Positions 2,299-15,362 of a stretch of DNA of 15,716 bases are shown one piece after another (position 1 is the stretch's first letter; each line of letters opens with the position of its first letter). Position numbers and translations under genes: made by a program. The stretch covers positions 1-15,716 of the forward strand of contig JAJZRD010000065.1 in the NCBI GenBank assembly GCA_021845945.1, in the 5' to 3' direction. Source of the DNA: Chloroflexota bacterium. GTDB taxonomy: Bacteria > Chloroflexota > UBA6077. The notes under the pieces are model-generated. The model was not told where the DNA came from and made no database searches. It was given only the letters and a program-made list of their open reading frames with translations.

Positions 2299-3246
2299 AT
2301 GGTGACGCGAGACTACTACGACATCCTAGGCGTGGCGCGCAGCGCCTCCGAAAAGGAGATCCGGCAGGCCTACCGCAGGCTGGCTCGCAAGTGCCACCCG
2401 GACGTCAACCCCAACGACAAGTCCGCCGAGGCCAAGTTCAAGGAGATCGGCGAGGCCTACGAGGTCCTCTCCGACGCCGAGAAGCGGGCCAAGTACGATC
2501 GATACGGCCACAACTGGCGCCAGATCCAGGAGCAGGAAGAGGCCGCAAGGCGAGCGGGGTTCAGGCCGGAGGATTTTCGCACCGGCCCAAGCGGAGCCAA
2601 CTGGGAGTGGCAGACCGGCCCCGCGGCCGGCTTCGGATCCGGCGGCTTCTCCGAGGTGCTGGAGGAGATCCTCCGGGGTGCCGGAGGCAGGGGCCGTGCC
2701 GGCAGCCGGGCGAGGGTTCAGCCCACCAGGGGCGAGGACCTGGAGTACCCCCTGGAGATCTCCCTGGCCGAGGCCTACATCGGCACCACCCGTCTCCTCC
2801 AGATGGAGGGGGCCCAGCCCCGACGGCTGGAGGTGAAGATCCCGGCGGGCGTCAGGGACGGCTCCCGGGTGCGGGTGGCCGGCGAAGGCGGCCCGGGCAT
2901 CGCCGGAGGCCCCAAGGGCGATCTGTACCTGGTGATCTCCCTTCGCCCCGATCCCAACTTCGAGCGAAAAGAGGATGACCTGTACGTGGAGATCCCGGTG
3001 CCGCTGGAGACCCTGGTGTTGGGCGGAGAGGTCCACGTGCCCATCCCCAAGGGCACCCGGCTGGTGCTGAAGATCCCCGCGGAAACCCAGAACGGCAAGC
3101 AGTTCCGGCTGGCGGGCCAGGGTATGCCCCACCTGCAGGGGGGCGGACGCGGCGACCTGTACGCCAAGGTAAGGGCAGTACTGCCGACCAACCTCAGCCC
3201 CCGTGAGAGGGAACTGTTCCAAGAGCTGGCTAGACTGAGGAAGTAG
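2299..3246 (+). CDS. dnaJ: DnaJ-family co-chaperone, type II (no zinc finger; CbpA-like)
   Basis: J-domain co-chaperone that delivers unfolded clients to DnaK and stimulates its ATPase in the cytoplasm. The 315-aa product has an N-terminal J-domain (about residues 3-70: [20 protein letters not shown], with the essential HPD at 33-35 and a typical [17 protein letters not shown] helix IV). A Gly/Phe-rich linker follows (about 95-145), then the two-lobed C-terminal substrate-binding domain (about 150-310: [56 protein letters not shown]). The four CxxCxGxG repeats of classical DnaJ are absent, so it is a type II/CbpA-like J-protein. ATG 2299 has AGGAG 8 nt upstream and follows a perfect promoter closely. 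hspR starts 5 nt after its stop. No dnaK or grpE is present in the window. Confidence 0.95.
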
Positions 3247-3251
3247 GGAAG

Positions 3252-3605
3252 ATGAGTCCAAGAGACGTGAGGGACAGCGCGGAGCAAGAGCCCTGCTTCG
3301 TAATCAGCATCGCCGCCAGACTGGTGAACGTTCACCAGCAGACCCTGCGCTACTACGAACGGCTGGGGCTTCTCGAGCCCGGCCGCTCTCAAGGCAACAT
3401 CCGACTCTACTCCATGCAGGATATCCATCGGGCCCAGCAGATCCGGCGGCTGATCGACGAGCTGGGCGCGAACCTGGCGGGCGTCGAAGTGATCCTGAAC
3501 ATGACCGACAGGATCGCCGAGATGGAGCACCGAATGGCCCAGATGCGCGAGGAGTACGAGGCGGAGATCCGCCGCTTGAGGGCGATGCTGAACGACGTCG
3601 GATAG
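3252..3605 (+). CDS. hspR: HspR, MerR-family heat-shock repressor
   Basis: Predicted transcriptional repressor of chaperone genes. In the known systems HspR binds HAIR operators, with DnaK as co-repressor. The 117-aa product has an N-terminal MerR-type winged helix-turn-helix: FVISIAARLVNVHQQTLRYY at about 16-35, then ERLGLLEPGRSQGNIRLYS and an IHRAQQIRRLIDELGANLAG helix typical of HspR. A C-terminal coiled coil follows (about 85-115, rich in Glu, Arg and Met) for dimerisation. It lacks the C-terminal effector domains and cysteine signature of metal- or redox-sensing MerR proteins. ATG 3252 lies 5 nt after the dnaJ stop, with its Shine-Dalgarno (AGGGAAG) overlapping that stop. The matching operator on the operon's own promoter (2249-2269) supports both the identity and autoregulation. 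Confidence 0.92.
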   Translation: MSPRDVRDSAEQEPCFVISIAARLVNVHQQTLRYYERLGLLEPGRSQGNIRLYSMQDIHRAQQIRRLIDELGANLAGVEVILNMTDRIAEMEHRMAQMREEYEAEIRRLRAMLNDVG

Positions 3606-3617
3606 TGCTCGAGGAGC

Positions 3618-3666
3618 ACCCCACCCTTCTCCCCTCCCCGCAGCGGGGAGGGGAGAAGGGTGGGGT
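3618..3666. repeat. Perfect 24-bp inverted repeat between hspR and clpB
   Basis: Bases 3618-3641 (ACCCCACCCTTC...) and 3643-3666 (...GAAGGGTGGGGT) are exact inverted copies around one central base, so the RNA would fold into a very stable hairpin with a tiny GCAGC loop. There is no U-run, so it is not a classic intrinsic terminator. One strand is a nearly pure C/T tract and the other a G/A tract. It occupies the middle of the 121-nt gap before clpB, where it could reduce read-through from the upstream promoter, mark RNA processing, or be a dispersed repeat. Its CCC-ACCC and CTCCCC composition is similar to the element at 8214-8247. Confidence 0.75.
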
Positions 3667-3726
3667 CCGTACCGGTCCATCGAGTAGTCGCCCCCCGAGA
3701 GTTCCCTTCGGATGAGGTAGTAGCCC

Positions 3727-6314
<2,588 letters not shown>

Positions 6315-6318
<4 letters not shown>

Positions 6319-6466: not shown

Positions 6467-7243
6467 ATGCGTCCGGGACGATGGCCCCTGATCGGGGGGC
6501 TTGCCGCGCTCGTCATCGCCCTTCCCCTGGCCGATGCCCCCCTGATGCTGGGGCTGCGGGGCGTGGGCTACGCCGTCTGCCACCAGATCCCGAGCCACTC
6601 CCTCTTCATCGCCGGGCAGCAGCTGCCCCTATGCGCCCGTTGCACCGGGATCTACCTGGGCTTCCTGGTGGGACTTCTGGGGCTGGCGCTGCTGGGGAAG
6701 CTGAGCGCCTCCCGGCTGCCGCCCCGCCCCATCACCCTCCTGCTCCTTCTAGCCCTCCTGGCCATGGCCGTGGACGGGTTGAACTCCCTGCTGGGTTTCT
6801 TCCCCGACGCGCCTCAGGCCTACCAGCCCTCGAACCTGCTCCGGCTGGCCACCGGCATGGCTGCCGGCAGCTCCCTGGCGCTGATCCTGGTGCCCTTGAT
6901 GAACGAAGCCCTCTGGGCTAAGCCGGCCGCCTGGGAAAGCGTGTCCGACCTGGGGGAGTTGGGGGGCTACGCGGTGCTGGTCGCCCTGGCCACGGTGCTG
7001 GTCGACGCGGAGCACCCGGCCCTGCTCTATCCCATCGCCATCGCCAGCGTGGCGGGCGTTTTCCTGGCCCTCTCCATGGCCGGCACCGCCCTGGCTGCCA
7101 CCCTCCTGGCCCCTCGCGGGGGCCTGGCCTCCTCCCCGGCCGAGGCCGGACGGGCCGCCCTCGGGGGCTTCGCCCTGGCCGCCATCGCCATGGTGGCCCT
7201 GGGAGAGGCGCGCGCCTACCTCTCACCCCTGCTGGGAGTGTAG
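6467..7243 (+). CDS. DUF2085 family polytopic membrane protein
   Basis: Integral membrane protein of unknown function. The 258-aa product is strongly hydrophobic, with about six or seven predicted membrane segments (near 8-24, 62-79, 87-104, 124-142, 166-181, 187-206 and 230-248). The family is identified by the conserved CHQIPSHS motif (Cys38-His39-Gln40) and PLCARCTGIYLG (Cys56 and Cys59), which follow the first membrane segment. These Cys and His residues are a plausible metal or redox site, but I know of no proven activity. The product is longer than the minimal DUF2085 domain, with a C-terminal extension holding extra membrane helices. ATG 6467 follows AAGGGGGA by about 10 nt. It lies 148 nt after clpB, beyond the REP unit, so it is probably transcribed independently; no clear promoter was found. 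Confidence 0.85.
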   Translation: MRPGRWPLIGGLAALVIALPLADAPLMLGLRGVGYAVCHQIPSHSLFIAGQQLPLCARCTGIYLGFLVGLLGLALLGKLSASRLPPRPITLLLLLALLAMAVDGLNSLLGFFPDAPQAYQPSNLLRLATGMAAGSSLALILVPLMNEALWAKPAAWESVSDLGELGGYAVLVALATVLVDAEHPALLYPIAIASVAGVFLALSMAGTALAATLLAPRGGLASSPAEAGRAALGGFALAAIAMVALGEARAYLSPLLGV

Positions 7244-8689: not shown

Positions 8690-9295
8690 ATGACCGAGGA
8701 TGAGGATCGGGAGACAACACGCCGCGGGAGCCCTCTGCTCCTCCCCGTGCGCCTTCTCCTTCACTGGATTATCAAGACGGTGGTTCTCCTGTTCCTGGAG
8801 ATCCGCACAGTGCTGCGACCGAGAGCCGTCCGCTACGGGCTGGTAGCTCTCCTGGTCGTCGGGGCCATCGGCTGGAAGACCACCGGTGGAACCATTCAGG
8901 GCATGCAGGCCCCCGGTACCCAACCGGCCCTCGGGGCGACCGCTGTCCTGTCCGAGCCCCCCACCACCCAGCTTCCCCCGTCCCCGGTGGTGGAACGCTA
9001 CCTTCAGGCCCAGACCAACTTCGACGGGAAGACCATGTGGGACCTGATCAGCGACGACATGAAGAACTCCATGCAGGCCACCGACGCAACCCTCCAGCAG
9101 CTGCAACAGCAGTTGGACGCCGCCAAGCAGCAGGGTCGCCGATACACCCGCTCGATCTACGTGGGCGGCATCCCCCTGGGTAACGGAGAGAACGTTTACT
9201 TCTACGTGCTGCAGGTGGATGGCCCCACCGGCTCCACCCAGGTCCCCTACATCTACGTCGTGGGAACCGACGGCAAGATCGTCAGCATTCAGTGA
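8690..9295 (+). CDS. Membrane-anchored protein with extracytoplasmic domain, unknown function
   Basis: Not recognised as a named family. The 201-aa product has a charged N-terminus, a hydrophobic amphipathic stretch (about 17-40), a transmembrane segment (about 49-62) preceded by Arg residues (inside-positive), and a Pro/Thr-rich linker. A C-terminal domain (about 100-201) would lie outside the membrane. That domain starts VVERYLQAQTNFDGKTMWDLIS, has a Gln-rich helix (residues about 128-143), and ends in beta strands (NVYFYVLQVDG, VPYIYVVGTDGKIVSI). The pattern resembles NTF2-like/DUF4878-type folds, which is an inference. ATG 8690 has AAAGGTG 6 nt upstream; a GTG at 8681 is an alternative start. 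Its stop is 11 nt before the FtsH-like gene, so the two are almost certainly co-transcribed. The context suggests a regulator, adaptor or substrate-binding partner of the protease. Confidence 0.75.
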   Translation: MTEDEDRETTRRGSPLLLPVRLLLHWIIKTVVLLFLEIRTVLRPRAVRYGLVALLVVGAIGWKTTGGTIQGMQAPGTQPALGATAVLSEPPTTQLPPSPVVERYLQAQTNFDGKTMWDLISDDMKNSMQATDATLQQLQQQLDAAKQQGRRYTRSIYVGGIPLGNGENVYFYVLQVDGPTGSTQVPYIYVVGTDGKIVSIQ

Positions 9296-9306
9296 GAGAG
9301 GTAGCT

Positions 9307-11199
9307 ATGCAGGACAGTCAATCCCAGAAAAACTCCCTCGACGGGTCCATAGATAGCTTCATCGAGGCCGTCTCCGGGATCGTCAGCCGGCAGCTCAAGT
9401 GGCTCGTGCTGCTTGCCATCTTCGCCGCAGTCTTCTGGACCTTCCTGCTGCCCACCTGGCAGAAATGGCTCCCCATGGTGGGCTACGGCGCCCTGATGCT
9501 GTTCCAGCTGGCCTTCGCCGTCATGTTCATGATCGTCCAGTTCGTCGCCCTCTTCTGGTTCCTCGGGAGGGGCCGCACCTACTGGGTGAAGCCGGGCGAG
9601 ACCGGGGTGGGCTTCAAGGACTACAAGGGCAATCCCGAGGTGCTGGAGTCCGCCCGCCGCATAGTCACCCTGCTGCGAGGGGTCAAGGGCTTCAGGCAGA
9701 TGGGCGGCGAGGCGATCCGCGGCCTCCTGCTGATCGGCCCTCCAGGCACAGGTAAGAGCTACCTGGCCCAGGCCATCTCCACCGAGGCCGGCGTCCCCTT
9801 CGGCTACGCCAGCGCCCCCAGCTTCCAGAACATGTTCATGGGCATCGGCAACCTCCGGGTCATGATGCTGTACGGCAAGGCCCGCAAGCTGGCCAAGAAG
9901 TACGGAGCCTGCATCCTCTTCATCGACGAGATCGACGCCATCGGGGCGGCTCGGGCCAACCAGGGAGCCAGCACCGGCATGGGCGGGATGATGTTCGGCG
10001 GCAACACCGGCATGCTGAACGAGCTGCTGCTCCAGATGGACCCTCCCCCCCAGGAGCAGAGCCGCTGGGGGCGGATGATGCGCGCCCTGGGGCTCCGGAA
10101 GAAGAAGGTCGACATGCCCCCGGTGCTCACCATCGGGGCCACCAACCTGGCGGAGGTGCTGGACCCTGCCCTGCTCCGCCCGGGCCGCTTCGACCGAAAG
10201 ATCAGCGTGGACCTGCCCAGCGCCGACGGGCGGCGCGAGATCCTGGAGTACTACCTGGCCAAGGTCCACCACGACGAGATGAGGCTGGACAAGCTGGTGT
10301 TCGACACCATCAGCTACACCCCCGTGGCCATCAAGTACGTCATCAACGAGGCCGCGGTCATCGCCCACTTCGACGGCAGGAACACCATCACCTACCGGGA
10401 CTTCACCCTGGCCAGAGAGACCCACGAGTGGGGACTCAGACAGCCGATCAAGAACATGTCCGAGGAGGAGCGGAGGAGGATCGCCTACCACGAGGCGGGC
10501 CACTGCTACGCCCAGCTGAAGCTGCTGCCCCGCCAGAGGATGACCAAGGTCACCATCATCCGCCACGGGCAGGCCCTGGGGCTCTCGGCCACCAAGCCGT
10601 TGGAGGAGATGTACACCCACACCCGGGAGGAGCTCTTGGCGGACATCCAGTCCAGCCTGGCGAGCAGGGCCTCCGAGGAGATCTTCCTGGGCACGGCGCT
10701 CACCGGCGTGACCTCGGACCTGGAGCAGGCGACCCGCATGGCCGCCGCCGCCATCGGATGGTTCGGCATGAACGGCAGCCTCTACTCGGTGCGAGCCTTC
10801 GGCGAGATGACCCCGGATCCGGTCATGAAGCGTGAGATCGACAAGATGCTGAAGGACCAGTACAAGAAGGTAAAGCTGCTGCTGGAAAGCAACAAGGAGG
10901 CCGTGGCCGGCATCGCCGAGGGGCTGCTGGCGAAGGACGAGCTGGACGAGGACGAGATCACGGAGATAGTCGCCTCGGCGGAGCGCTTCAGGGCGCAGCG
11001 ACCTGCCTCCGCCCCGATCTCGCTGCCGGTAGCCCCCCGGGATGGAGAGAAGGGGGCTGAGTCCGCGGCGGAGACGGCGGTAGCCGCCGTCGAGGTAGCC
11101 GAAGCCCCGGCGGACAGCGCTGCGGTCGGCGAGGCCGAGGGCGAGGAGGAAGTCGGAGCGGACCCCTCCGGGGGTCCGGCGGTGGAGCAAGCCGCATGA
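9307..11199 (+). CDS. Divergent FtsH-like membrane AAA+ zinc metalloprotease
   Basis: Predicted ATP-driven membrane protease with AAA+ and M41-type peptidase domains; 630 aa. Seen: two N-terminal membrane segments (about 31-49 and 58-87) joined by a very short loop instead of FtsH's periplasmic domain; Walker A GPPGTGKS at 144-151; Walker B CILFIDEIDAIG; arginine-finger region LLRPGRFDR from 289; zinc motif HEAGH at 395-399; and a likely third zinc ligand, Asp471, in SDLEQATRMA. It departs from housekeeping FtsH in several ways. The pore loop reads FMG rather than FVG. A basic insert of about 20 residues (SRWGRMMRALGLRKKK) precedes sensor 1. The linker lacks the GFxGADL motif and reads YTPVAIKYVINEAAV. 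The tail beyond about 565 is Ala/Glu-rich and disordered. All catalytic residues are present, so it should be active. ATG 9307 has AGAGAGG upstream; a GTG at 9292 would overlap the preceding stop. It is probably a second FtsH-type protease rather than the housekeeping enzyme. Confidence 0.85.
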   Translation: MQDSQSQKNSLDGSIDSFIEAVSGIVSRQLKWLVLLAIFAAVFWTFLLPTWQKWLPMVGYGALMLFQLAFAVMFMIVQFVALFWFLGRGRTYWVKPGETGVGFKDYKGNPEVLESARRIVTLLRGVKGFRQMGGEAIRGLLLIGPPGTGKSYLAQAISTEAGVPFGYASAPSFQNMFMGIGNLRVMMLYGKARKLAKKYGACILFIDEIDAIGAARANQGASTGMGGMMFGGNTGMLNELLLQMDPPPQEQSRWGRMMRALGLRKKKVDMPPVLTIGATNLAEVLDPALLRPGRFDRKISVDLPSADGRREILEYYLAKVHHDEMRLDKLVFDTISYTPVAIKYVINEAAVIAHFDGRNTITYRDFTLARETHEWGLRQPIKNMSEEERRRIAYHEAGHCYAQLKLLPRQRMTKVTIIRHGQALGLSATKPLEEMYTHTREELLADIQSSLASRASEEIFLGTALTGVTSDLEQATRMAAAAIGWFGMNGSLYSVRAFGEMTPDPVMKREIDKMLKDQYKKVKLLLESNKEAVAGIAEGLLAKDELDEDEITEIVASAERFRAQRPASAPISLPVAPRDGEKGAESAAETAVAAVEVAEAPADSAAVGEAEGEEEVGADPSGGPAVEQAA

Positions 11200-11428: not shown

Positions 11429-14227
11429 ATGCAACCAGCGCCGGCAGCACAACCTCCACCCCCGCAAGAGCAGCCAGAAGAACCCCCCCTCTATGCCCTT
11501 CGGCCGGAGGAGGTGTACCGGCGGCTGGAGAGCTCGCCCGAGGGGCTCAGCGAGCAGGAGGCGGCGGAGCGGCTGGCCCGCTACGGTCCTAACGAGCTGA
11601 AGGAGACCCGCAAGACGCCCCGGTGGCGGGTCTTCCTGGGCAACCTGACCAACTTCTTCGCGATACTGCTCTGGATCGCCGCCGCCCTCTCCGTGGTGGC
11701 GGGAAGCATCATCGTCGCCGTGGCCATCGCGGCGGTCATCATCATCAACGCCATCTTCGCCTTCTGGCAGGAGTACAAGGCCGAGCAGGCCGTGGAGGCG
11801 CTGCGGCGACTGCTCCCGCGGCGCGCCAGGGTCGTGCGGGAGGGTCAGGAGAGAGTCATCGAGGCGCGAGAGCTGGTGCCCGGCGACGTAGTGCTGCTGT
11901 CCGAGGGCGACGCCATCTCGGCGGATGCTCGCCTGGTGGAGGCTTTCCAGTTAGCTACCGACAACGCCACCCTGACCGGCGAGTCGATGCCGGTGCCCAA
12001 GACCGCCGATCCCCTGCCAGAGCCCGGAGCCTCCCTGGTGGAGGTCCCCAACCTGATCTTCGCGGGTACGGCCACCGCCACGGGCACGGGCAAGGCCGTG
12101 GTGTACGCCACCGGCATGACGACCGAGTTCGGCAAGATCGCCGGTCTCACCCAGACGGTGAGCGCGGGTGCCAGCCCGCTTCAGAAGCAGTTGGCGCGAA
12201 CGGTCCAGATAATCGCCGGACTCGCCATCGTGGAGGGCGTCATCTTCTTCGTCCTCGGCTTCCTCGTCGTCCGCTTGCCGTTGGGGAACGTCCTCCTCTT
12301 CGCCGTGGGCGTGCTGACGGCCAACGTGCCGGAGGGTCTGCTCCCCACCCTCACCCTCTCCCTGGCCGTGGCGACCCAGCGGATGGTGCAGCAGAACGCG
12401 CTGGTGAAGAAGCTCTCCTCGGTGGAGACCCTGGGCTCCACCACGGTCATATGCACCGATAAGACGGGAACCCTGACCCAGAACGAGATGACGGTGCGGC
12501 GGATCTGGACGTCGGGGACCTCCTACGAGGTCACCGGCGTGGGATACGAGCCCAAAGGCGAGATAGTAGGGCCCGAGGGGGCCGTCTCCGCCGCCGGCTC
12601 GATGCCGCTGGCGGCGCTGCTCCACGCGGCCGTGCTGGCCAACAACGCCCGGGTGGTCCCCCCCTCCGATGAGCGGCCCTCCTGGTCGGTGCTGGGGGAT
12701 CCCACCGAGGCCGCCCTGCTGGTCGCAGGAGAGAAGGCGGGGATAGACTACCAGGAGGAATCCTTCCGATCGCCGCGGGTCTTCGAGATCCCCTTCGAGT
12801 CATCCCGCCGGCGGATGAGCACCCTCAACCAGGAGGCAAACCGGGTGGTGGCCTACGTCAAGGGGGCGCCCCGGGAGGTGCTGGAGAAGTGCACTCAGAT
12901 CCTGATGGGGGACCAGGTGGTGGATCTCACCCCGGAGCTGGCGGCGCGTGTGGCCGAGGAGAACGACCGTTACGCGCGGGAGGGTCTGCGGGTGCTGGGG
13001 GTGGCCCGTCGGGAGATCACCCTCCGGCGGGAGGATTGGGCAGCGGAGACCGTCGAGATGGATCTCACCCTGCTGGGGCTGATCGCCATGATGGACCCGC
13101 CGCGGCCCCAGGTAGCCGACGCGGTCAGGCTGGCCCACACCGCGGGGATACGGCTGGTGATGGTGACCGGAGACTACGGCCTGACGGCCGAGTCCATCGC
13201 CAGGAAGATCGGGATGGTGGAGTCGGAGAAGCCCCGCATCATCACCGGCGCCGAGCTGGCCCAGATGTCGGACTCCGATCTGCGCTTCGCCCTGCAGCGA
13301 GGAGAGGTGATCTTCGCCCGGGTGGCGCCGGAGCAGAAGATGCAGATCGTGGGAGCCTTCAAGGAGCTGGGCGAGATCGTGGCCGTGACCGGGGACGGGG
13401 TGAACGACGCGCCGGCACTGAAGCGAGCCGACATAGGGGTGGCCATGGGGATCGCCGGCACCGACGTGGCCAAGGAGGCGGCCGAGCTGATCCTCACCGA
13501 CGACAACTTCGCCACCATCGTGGCTGCCATCGAGCAGGGCCGTGCCGTCTACGACAACATCAAGAAGTTCCTCTCCTACTTCATAACGGCCAACTTCGCC
13601 GAGTTGGTTCCCTACGTGCTGTACGTGGTCGCCGGCATCCCCCTTCCCCTGACGGTGCTGCAGCTCCTCACCATCGACCTGGGCGTCGAGCAGGTGCCTG
13701 CCCTCGCCCTGGGAACCGAGCTGCCAGAGCCGGGAGTCATGGAGCGTCCCCCCTCGGAGCAGCGAAAACCGATCCTGGGTCGCTTCGTCCTGGGCAGGGG
13801 CTACCTCTTCCTGGGGAGCATCGCTGCCATAGCTGGTATGGCCAGCTACTTCTTCGTCTACTGGTTCAACGGCTGGGTCCCGGGACAGCCGCTGCCCGAT
13901 TCCGGCCGGATCTACGCCACGGCCACCACCATGACCTACGGCGGCATCGTGGCCGCGCAAATAGGCAACGCCTTCACCGCCCGAACCAGCCGGGTCTCGG
14001 TGTTCAGCATCGGGCTCTTCTCCAACCGGCTGATGAACGTCGGTGTCCTGGTGGCGATAGCCATCTTTGTTATAGTGGTGTACCTGCCCCCTCTCCAGCC
14101 GGTCTTCAACACGGCGCCGCTGGGGTTGGAGGGGCTGTTCCTGCTGATCTGGCCACCTTTGATCTTCGGCGCCGACGAGCTTCGAAAACTGGTAGCCCGG
14201 CGCCGGGCTCGACGGAGGGAGGCGTGA
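11429..14227 (+). CDS. P-type cation-transporting ATPase, P2 class with Na,K-ATPase-like (P2C) ion site
   Basis: Membrane pump that uses ATP through an aspartyl-phosphate to move cations; 932 aa. Domains: N-terminal cation-ATPase domain (PEEVYRRLESSPEGLSEQEA); TM1-2; actuator loop with TGES at 183-186; TM3-4 with ANVPEGLL (Glu302); phosphorylation motif DKTGT at 344-348; nucleotide-binding domain with KGAPREVLEKC; hinge GDGVNDAP from 655; and six C-terminal membrane helices. TM5-TM6 align without gaps to Na,K-ATPase: Asn722 and Glu725 match N776 and E779, Asp750 matches D804, Glu754 takes the place of D808, and Ala721 takes the place of the K+-important S775; IPLPL and IDLG are also shared. 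The heavy-metal CPC motif is absent. The frame is open from 11339 but that segment lies in a repeat, so I chose ATG 11429. Two TrkA genes follow at once, arguing for Na+/K+ homeostasis rather than Ca2+. Ion specificity is inferred. Confidence 0.93.
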   Translation: MQPAPAAQPPPPQEQPEEPPLYALRPEEVYRRLESSPEGLSEQEAAERLARYGPNELKETRKTPRWRVFLGNLTNFFAILLWIAAALSVVAGSIIVAVAIAAVIIINAIFAFWQEYKAEQAVEALRRLLPRRARVVREGQERVIEARELVPGDVVLLSEGDAISADARLVEAFQLATDNATLTGESMPVPKTADPLPEPGASLVEVPNLIFAGTATATGTGKAVVYATGMTTEFGKIAGLTQTVSAGASPLQKQLARTVQIIAGLAIVEGVIFFVLGFLVVRLPLGNVLLFAVGVLTANVPEGLLPTLTLSLAVATQRMVQQNALVKKLSSVETLGSTTVICTDKTGTLTQNEMTVRRIWTSGTSYEVTGVGYEPKGEIVGPEGAVSAAGSMPLAALLHAAVLANNARVVPPSDERPSWSVLGDPTEAALLVAGEKAGIDYQEESFRSPRVFEIPFESSRRRMSTLNQEANRVVAYVKGAPREVLEKCTQILMGDQVVDLTPELAARVAEENDRYAREGLRVLGVARREITLRREDWAAETVEMDLTLLGLIAMMDPPRPQVADAVRLAHTAGIRLVMVTGDYGLTAESIARKIGMVESEKPRIITGAELAQMSDSDLRFALQRGEVIFARVAPEQKMQIVGAFKELGEIVAVTGDGVNDAPALKRADIGVAMGIAGTDVAKEAAELILTDDNFATIVAAIEQGRAVYDNIKKFLSYFITANFAELVPYVLYVVAGIPLPLTVLQLLTIDLGVEQVPALALGTELPEPGVMERPPSEQRKPILGRFVLGRGYLFLGSIAAIAGMASYFFVYWFNGWVPGQPLPDSGRIYATATTMTYGGIVAAQIGNAFTARTSRVSVFSIGLFSNRLMNVGVLVAIAIFVIVVYLPPLQPVFNTAPLGLEGLFLLIWPPLIFGADELRKLVARRRARRREA

Positions 14228-14228
14228 C

Positions 14229-14876
14229 GTGAGAGTGGTGATAGTGGGATGCGGGCGCGTCGGAGCCGACCTGGCCACCGACCTGTCGGTTCACGAACAC
14301 GAGGTAGCCGTGATCGACAACAATCCCTACGCCTTCCTTCGGTTGGGCAAGGCCTTCCGAGGGAAGACCATCGAAGGGATAGGCTTCGATCGGGATATCC
14401 TGATCCAGGCGGGCATCGAGCGGGCGGACGGCTTTGCCTCGGTGACCAGCGGGGACAACACCAACATCGTCGCGGCCATGATCGCCCGCAACGTCTTTCG
14501 GGTGCCGAAGATCGTCGCCCGCATCGCGGACCCTCAGCGGGCCGAGATCTACCGTCGCCTCGGGATCCCCACCATCTCGCCGACCATCTGGGGGGCCAAC
14601 GAGATCCGAGAGATGCTGGTCACCCCGGACCTCGGCAGCAGCTTCACCTTCGGCAGCGGCGAGGTGGAGCTGATACAGTTCCGGGTTCCGCCGCGGCTGG
14701 CCGGCTACACGGCGGGCCAGATGATCAGCCCCTCCCGCTTCAACGTGGTCTCCATCGTGCGGGGCGGCCGGGCCTTTATTCCCACGGCCGGCACCCAACT
14801 GGCCGAAGCGGACCTGGTGTACGTGGCCGTGGAGGCCGGTTCCCTCACCAAGCTGGAGGAGATCATCCACCCTTGA
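14229..14876 (+). CDS. trkA: TrkA-type K+ uptake regulatory protein (RCK N and C domains)
   Basis: Cytoplasmic nucleotide-binding regulator of Trk/Ktr-type K+ channels; 215 aa. The N-terminal RCK/TrkA-N Rossmann domain (about 1-120) starts VVIVGCGRVGADLA with the GxGxxG loop, followed by VAVIDNNP, whose acidic residue at the end of beta-2 should bind NAD(H) or a related nucleotide ribose. GDNTNIVAAMIARNVF and KIVARIADPQRAEIYRRLG are typical RCK segments. A TrkA-C domain (about 135-215) ends the protein (GYTAGQMISPSRFNVVSIVR, LAEADLVYVAV). The GTG start at 14229 lies 1 nt after the ATPase stop, which implies translational coupling; GGAGG at the end of the ATPase frame serves as ribosome site. 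It is followed 63 nt later by a second TrkA-like gene. No TrkH/KtrB channel gene is in the window. Confidence 0.93.
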   Translation: MRVVIVGCGRVGADLATDLSVHEHEVAVIDNNPYAFLRLGKAFRGKTIEGIGFDRDILIQAGIERADGFASVTSGDNTNIVAAMIARNVFRVPKIVARIADPQRAEIYRRLGIPTISPTIWGANEIREMLVTPDLGSSFTFGSGEVELIQFRVPPRLAGYTAGQMISPSRFNVVSIVRGGRAFIPTAGTQLAEADLVYVAVEAGSLTKLEEIIHP

Positions 14877-14939
14877 GGGAGCGGCACATGGCGGGTAGGG
14901 GCGTGTGGCATACGCGCTGACGGGCGTCGGGAGGTCGAT

Positions 14940-15362
14940 ATGCAGGTACTTGTGGTGGGTGGCGGGAGGATAGGCGCCTATTTGGCCGAGGATCTGGCCG
15001 CCAAGGGACATCAGGTGGTAATGATCGAGAAGCGGCCCGAGCGGGTCCAGGAGCTCACTCTCCAGCTTGCCAAGAGCCGGGTGCGAGTGATCCAGGGGGA
15101 CGGCAACGACCCAACGGTGCTGAGGGAGGCCGGGGCCAAGGACATGCAGGCGCTGGCGGCTGCCACGGGGGACGACGAGGACAACCTGGTCATCGGGCTG
15201 CTGGGCAAGCGGGAGTTCGGCATCCCCCGAGTGGTGGGCCGGGTGAACAACCCTCGGAACGCCTGGCTGTACGCGCCCTCTTTCGGCTTCGACGCCTCCG
15301 TCCGCCCGGCCGAGATCATCGCCTCGCTGATCGAAGAGGAGATCGAGCAGCCGGCACCCTGA
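14940..15362 (+). CDS. Short TrkA-N (RCK_N) protein lacking the TrkA-C domain
   Basis: A 140-aa Rossmann-fold nucleotide-binding protein of the Trk regulator type. Seen: VLVVGGGRIGAYLAEDLAAK with GxGxxG at 7-12; VVMIEKRPERVQEL, with Glu at the end of beta-2 where the ribose is held; VIQGDGNDPTVLREAGAKD; and RVVGRVNNPRNAWLYAPSFG. The protein ends with a helix (PAEIIASLIEEEIEQ) just after the TrkA-N fold, so the C-terminal ligand-binding domain of its neighbour is absent. The frame shows no decay, and no TrkA-C sequence appears downstream, where an inverted repeat begins 16 nt after the stop. ATG 14940 follows GGGAGG at good spacing. It probably pairs with the longer TrkA in a mixed regulatory ring. 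Confidence 0.88.
   Translation: MQVLVVGGGRIGAYLAEDLAAKGHQVVMIEKRPERVQELTLQLAKSRVRVIQGDGNDPTVLREAGAKDMQALAAATGDDEDNLVIGLLGKREFGIPRVVGRVNNPRNAWLYAPSFGFDASVRPAEIIASLIEEEIEQPAP

Follow-up and report, generated by a model that had tools for sequence, protein, structure and literature searches.

We analyzed three adjacent genes at positions 11,429 to 15,362 of a 15,716-nucleotide stretch of DNA from a Chloroflexota bacterium (contig JAJZRD010000065.1 of GenBank assembly GCA_021845945.1), the whole of which is referred to as the window herein. The genes encode a P2-type ATPase, the pump, and two TrkA (RCK) proteins, T1 and T2. We give roughly even odds to the reading that they form a K+-linked transport unit, in which a P2 pump that is sister to the P2C ATPases would be under the control of a heteromeric RCK (TrkA) unit. 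This reading is based on the gene order, the family placement of the pump, the ion ligands that it shares with Na,K-ATPase, and the TrkA pairs that we observed beside the pump, the K+ symporter KimA and TrkH. From these we infer that T1-T2 binds the pump and regulates it directly in response to a signal, and that the ion moved is K+ and/or Na+.

Gene order at the window locus and its relatives

Open reading frame (ORF) and Pfam analyses confirmed an earlier prediction made from the window sequence (the original prediction), namely that a 932-aa P2-type pump is followed by two TrkA genes, with gaps of 1 nt between the ATPase and T1 and 63 nt between T1 and T2. All three ORFs lie on the same strand.

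11429..14227, + strand: P2-type ATPase of the Na,K-ATPase-like family, 932 aa (P0001; ORF, Pfam, PDB match)
12332..12334, + strand: E302, equivalent to Na,K-ATPase E327 (M4, VPEGL; codon position derived from the start of the ORF)
12458..12460, + strand: D344, the Asp of DKTGT that is phosphorylated in P-type ATPases
13589..13603, + strand: M5 residues A721 N722 F723 A724 E725, aligned with S775 N776 .. E779
13676..13690, + strand: M6 residues D750 L G V E754, aligned with D804 .. T807 D808
13958..13960, + strand: M8 residue Q844, aligned with Na,K-ATPase Q923
14054..14056, + strand: M9 residue A876, aligned with the Na,K-ATPase E954 position
14229..14876, + strand: T1, TrkA/RCK protein, 215 aa, GTG start, TrkA_N and TrkA_C, GCGRVG and D30
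14940..15362, + strand: T2, TrkA/RCK protein, 140 aa, TrkA_N alone, GGGRIG and E30

The ATPase has the full P2-type domain set by Pfam, and it matched Na,K-ATPase alpha-3 in the PDB (E = 1.9e-163). T1 carries a TrkA_C domain (34.9 bits, cut-off 27), which Pfam did not detect in T2. Both proteins have a TrkA_N domain with GxGxxG and an acidic β2 residue, and all three glycines of the motif, as well as the acidic position (Asp30 in T1, Glu30 in T2), are invariant in the aligned 22 T1 and 17 T2 sequences, those of the window included. This is the pattern expected of nucleotide-binding RCK domains. A Pfam scan of 13 window ORFs found neither TrkH/KtrB nor KdpA; the window stops 354 nt past T2.

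To survey the gene order, we used GTDB loci fetched by similarity to the pump (the best 80 of at least 549 confirmed), 77 of which had at least 1 kb of sequence after the ATPase. T1-T2 followed the ATPase in 45 of these 77 loci, a single TrkA in one (L028, with 1.5 kb of contig left) and no TrkA in 31. Among loci of the pump family, the ATPase-TrkA-TrkA order was found in 45/67, so it is not unique to the source genome, and it spans Chloroflexota, Actinomycetota, Bacillota and Thermodesulfobacteriota. None of the 10 P2A-type or unplaced loci (L067, L071-L073, L075-L080) had the pair. The 21 family loci without it came from Lactobacillaceae (15), streptococci (2) and Bifidobacterium (1), together with L013, L061 and L065. 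A plasmid locus of Streptomyces (L083), annotated in its public record with two TrkA family proteins, brings the set to 46 pair loci. In all 46 the T1-type gene precedes the T2-type gene, and the median gap between ATPase and T1 is -4 nt (exactly -4 in 22 loci, 50 nt or less in 39). Isolates are among the carriers of the locus, namely Thermoanaerobacterium, Geomonas, Flexilinea and Collinsella. Two conserved genes (L042:3974-5098 and L043:3185-3847) precede the ATPase, and also KimA, in 10 and 6 loci, respectively; their products had no match in Pfam or NCBIfam.

Family placement and ion-binding site of the pump

The free tree grouped animal Na,K-ATPase with the bacterial pump family (SH-aLRT 99), and its placement inside P2A was rejected (p-AU 0.013). 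In the P2 tree, the pump thus appears on the side of Na,K-ATPase in this quick search, which used a single animal reference on a long branch and left out P2B, P2D and archaeal P2C. Nesting of Na,K-ATPase inside the bacterial family, as in the free tree, was dropped because a tree with Na,K-ATPase outside was better by 20 log-likelihood units. The bacterial family is therefore probably the sister of animal Na,K-ATPase (P2C) rather than a member, and we do not file the window ATPase as P2C. Its NCBIfam scores were below the curated cut-offs for P2C Na,K/H,K-ATPase (TIGR01106, 628.7 bits, cut-off 946.1), PMR1-type (TIGR01522, 636.1 bits, cut-off 798.3) and P2A Ca2+-ATPase models (TIGR01116, 547.8 bits, cut-off 703.4). 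In fold comparison, identity was 37% to LMCA1 and likewise 37% to Na,K-ATPase. Neither the beta-subunit assembly motif SYG[Q/E] nor the C-terminal YY of animal Na,K-ATPase was found in any of 82 sequences. A search for a beta-subunit gene matched 0/50 relatives' genomes, yet control genomes gave no match either. One pump relative (P0081, 1066 aa) has an additional PF00359 domain, which we take to be PTS EIIA. At L166, L168 and L090/L112, two family ATPases stand in tandem or on either side of the TrkA pair; these are perhaps paralogues for different ions.

We next consider the ion-binding site. E302, A721, N722, E725, D750 and E754 of the window ATPase align with E327, S775, N776, E779, D804 and D808 of Na,K-ATPase alpha1, and the M5-M6 segments align without gaps, exactly as originally mapped. 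Three of the five ligands mapped originally do not distinguish Na,K-ATPase, however, since the equivalents of E327, N776 and E779 are common to Ca2+ pumps too. By alignment, the discriminating Na,K-ATPase-like positions of the wider family are instead D804, Q923 and E954. Counting over database relatives and loci, which overlap in part, the D804 position is Asp in 143/143 family sequences and Asn in 12/12 P2A-type or unplaced ones, and the Q923 position is Gln in 143/143 and Glu in 9/12, respectively. These are also the residues found at the SERCA N796 and E908 positions, Asp and Gln in all 143 family members including that of the window. Outside the window clade, the E954 position is Glu in 130/134 family sequences (72/73 database relatives, 39/42 loci with the TrkA pair and 19/19 without), and it is Ser in 11/12 P2A-type or unplaced sequences. 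At the D926 position, Asn occurs in 64/73 database relatives and in the window, and loci vary.

The window clade itself departs from this pattern. In 9/9 of its sequences S775 is replaced by Ala, T807 by Val or Ala, D808 by Glu and E954 by Ala. The original prediction had singled out the changes at S775 and D808; both are real, and T807, E954 and D926 have to be added to them. Thus, the window pump keeps N776, E779, D804 and Q923 and is altered at S775A, D808E, D926N and E954A, which points to a Na,K-like site in the wider family and a remodelled site in the window pump. Because S775, T807, D808 and E954 are altered in the window clade, the ion of the window pump cannot be read off its site, and the site does not support the primary Na+ export or Na+/K+ exchange proposed for it. 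A different remodelling of the same ion site appears in P0030, P0054, P0104, P0111, L086 and L087, in which S775 is replaced by His, N776 by Leu or Ala and D808 by Glu.

Comparison with known pumps places the family apart from each. Relative to the animal Na,K-ATPase and H,K-ATPase alpha subunits, the window pump is followed by TrkA genes, in addition to the differences in motifs, ligands and model score given above. The predicted Na,K-like P2C pumps of methanogens are likewise prokaryotic; their Na+ and K+ sites are all reported as conserved, unlike those of the window clade, and TrkA goes unmentioned in the P2C section of the review that describes them (PMC10654040). The same 2023 review poses the role of P2C ATPases in archaea as a question, with their function uncharacterised (PMC10654040). 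The P2A Ca2+ pumps (LMCA1, SPCA1 and bacterial L071-L073, L075-L080) are similar to the window pump in overall fold and identity and differ at D804 and Q923 and in the absence of the TrkA pair.

TrkA pairs beside other K+ transporters

In a survey of 61 Chloroflexota genomes (60 drawn evenly and one chosen centre), 5/5 T1 matches of at least 250 bits lay directly downstream of a family ATPase, and 5/7 ATPases above 1200 bits had T1. The next two T1 matches (204-217 bits) were directly behind a KimA-type transporter, as were four further pairs that we examined (L122, L124-L126). T1-type matches (E <= 1e-55) were also found in 83/149 Actinomycetota and 10/149 Bacillota genomes; for 80 of these 93 genomes, with 91 T1 matches in total, the positions of ATPases and KimA were determined. 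Among matches of at least 265 bits, 34/36 were directly downstream of an ATPase, and one of the exceptions begins 542 nt from the end of a contig. The 55 weaker matches were divided among those beside KimA (31, with 24 on the opposite strand), behind an ATPase (1) and beside neither (23). Within these genomes, selected for T1, 35/40 ATPases above 1030 bits had T1.

Of 25 T1 matches unlinked to ATPase or KimA, 13 were inspected, and TrkH adjoined nine of them (L144-L146, L149-L154; confirmed by Pfam in L144, L146 and L152). The others had KimA 2.3 kb away (L161), a KimA fragment at the edge (L147) or neither (L148, L155). Two further T1 matches, in G170 (L165), were also beside TrkH. The second gene was T2-type in 9/9 loci beside KimA, and for the second TrkA beside TrkH the T1 profile outscored the shorter T2 profile in 7/8 two-gene loci. 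In a midpoint-drawn tree, TrkH-linked T1s formed one clade (100/100) among ATPase-linked T1s (97/87), and parsimony gave four changes of partner for T1 and three for the second gene. The number of partner switches is uncertain because a single group of ATPase-linked T1s was not rejected (p-AU 0.086). As for the KimA assignment, the homologue that precedes the pump in L064 matches PDB 6s3k (E = 3.8e-18) and those elsewhere are ∼24% identical to it; KimA-type proteins match AA_permease_2, and K_trans was below cut-off in L120 and above it in L162.

We then examined which K+ transporters accompany the locus. A KimA-like gene is upstream in 9/46 pair loci, all of Chloroflexota, and in L164, L165 and L167 of the Actinomycetota sample the pump, T1-T2, TrkH and further long TrkA genes stand in one cluster. 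TrkH had no match in 20/32 genomes with the pair locus, nor in 18/36 other genomes with an ATPase-linked T1. KimA homologues (E <= 1e-10) were present in 16 of the 32 genomes and not in the other 16. Seven of the 32 had neither (G001, G008, G014-G016, G020, G030); G008 and G014-G016 carry Kup, and neither Kup nor KdpA was found in G001, G020 and G030, metagenome-assembled genomes of unreported completeness. In G004, G139, G151 and G207, a separate KimA or TrkH is accompanied by a TrkA pair of its own (L122, L152-L154).

Taken together, T1-T2 behave in genetic terms like a regulatory unit for K+ transporters, and the transporter at the window locus is the pump. The K+ link of the monovalent-cation operon first proposed here is thereby borne out, both by the related pairs beside KimA and TrkH and by clusters that also contain KimA, TrkH or long TrkA genes. 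A coupling to K+ uptake control presumes a Trk system and is not supported as proposed, since TrkH was not found in 20/32 locus genomes; for the same reason, the pump, or KimA in genomes that have it, is the likelier target of the TrkA pair. T1 and T2 resemble the regulators of Trk/Ktr K+ uptake in being TrkA_N (+TrkA_C) proteins with relatives that adjoin TrkH, but the adjoining window gene encodes a P-type ATPase. The KimA-type genes that share the pair, in Chloroflexota and Actinomycetota, encode a secondary transporter unrelated to the pump.

Other TrkA arrangements were also observed. Chloroflexota loci L127-L138 and L143 hold pairs of a short N-only and a long TrkA (in L131 both are short). 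Within the fetched stretch, KimA and TrkH were not found except in L132, and no consistent transporter neighbor of these pairs emerged. In L151:4345-5577, next to TrkH, T1 and T2 types are fused in one 411-aa frame that resembles the classical two-domain TrkA. Elsewhere in the window are a ThiF-domain protein (3-1661, - strand), a chaperone cluster of DnaJ, a MerR-type regulator and a ClpB-like AAA protein (2299-6318), a DUF2085 membrane protein (6467-7243, + strand) and, immediately upstream of the pump gene, an FtsH-like AAA and peptidase M41 protein (9292-11199).

Possible regulation of the pump and alternative explanations

In the most economical reading, T1 and T2 would associate as a heteromer, sense a nucleotide, or c-di-AMP via TrkA_C, and tune the pump on sensing this signal. 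c-di-AMP sensing through RCK_C is reported for RCK_C proteins, as is the assembly of RCK proteins into rings (PMC10243994). PDB entry 3l4b, which holds a short and a longer RCK protein of T. maritima (TM1088A, 143 aa, and TM1088B, 218 aa), would by analogy be a precedent for the T2-T1 heteromer. We tentatively propose, at somewhat less than even odds, that the RCK (TrkA) heteromer directly binds and gates the P2-type ATPase, and that swappable nucleotide-sensing modules control TrkH, KimA and the pump. KdpFABC (P1A) is likewise a P-type ATPase joined to parts of the K+-channel family; there the part is a channel-like transport subunit, KdpA, whereas the part borrowed here would be a cytosolic RCK regulator.

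Several points weigh against a K+-linked unit governed by T1-T2. Both the contact of the pump with T1-T2 and its transport are read from genes. P2 ATPases act as monomers, and the mismatch in geometry between an RCK ring and a monomeric pump is unexplained. T1-T2 are not essential to the pump, since the pair is absent from 21/67 family loci, of which 17 belong to Lactobacillaceae or streptococci. By alignment, several Na,K-ATPase ligands are changed in the window clade, and the pump phylogeny is thinly sampled in its animal, P2B, P2D and archaeal parts. The TrkH-linked pair appears related to T1-T2 and not identical, because its second gene scores higher with the T1 profile. The T1 score classes are partly built in, with ATPase-linked T1s favored at the top, because ATPase-linked T1s served to train the profile, and three of these came from genomes that were then searched (G007, G010, G016). 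Lastly, apparent absences of TrkH and KimA may be assembly gaps in genomes of unreported completeness.

It is possible, although rather unlikely, that T1-T2 are general K+ regulators of another transporter (KimA, Kup or TrkH) and that the pump merely shares their operon for K+/Na+ homeostasis. The upstream KimA-like genes in Chloroflexota, the clusters in which TrkH and an extra TrkA adjoin the pump, and the presence of KimA in 16/32 and TrkH in 12/32 genomes are consistent with such a role. However, 7/32 genomes match neither transporter, 34/36 top T1 matches are directly behind an ATPase, ATPase and T1 overlap by 4 nt in 22/46 GTDB and plasmid loci, and the separate KimA or TrkH of four genomes owns a TrkA pair.

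The remaining alternatives concern the ion. We consider it unlikely that the pump exports Na+ (or H+) without K+ counter-transport while its regulators match Na+ export to K+ uptake. The Na,K-ATPase-like site with E954 in the wider family and the lack of the SYG[Q/E] motif in 82/82 sequences would suit an export-only pump, but the gene neighborhood indicates K+ rather than Na+, and the present data do not separate export alone from exchange. Still less probable is export of a divalent ion (Ca2+ or Mn2+), as by LMCA1 or CtpF, under regulators that sense energy state. Identity to LMCA1 equals that to Na,K-ATPase, the PMR1-type model scores slightly above P2C (636 and 629 bits), E327, N776 and E779 are common to Ca2+ pumps, and S775 and E954 are altered in the window clade. 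Against this stand the Asp and Gln at the SERCA N796/E908 positions in 143/143 family members, the K+ transporters among neighboring genes and the rejection of Na,K-ATPase within P2A. CtpF is reported to retain the SERCA Ca2+ ligands other than D800 and A305 (PMC7525011); with these differing ligands, we dropped it as a model for the family.

A P2 ATPase-TrkA operon was not described in the literature searched (open-licence papers, among the matches listed). The protein families are known, and their combination suggests a new regulatory mode. Members of the pump family occur in several phyla of bacteria, and some carriers of the locus are isolates, so how the Na,K-ATPase branch of the P2 tree arose and what it does can be tested in bacteria. 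Na,K-like ligands, together with a genetic partner indicative of K+, suggest that cytosolic RCK channel regulators could also serve a pump. If an RCK heteromer does gate the pump, this would be a new mode of P-type ATPase regulation, bacteria would have a primary K+-linked pump that is sister to the animal one, and one swappable module family would control three unrelated K+ machines, namely TrkH channels, KimA symporters and a Na,K-ATPase-like pump.

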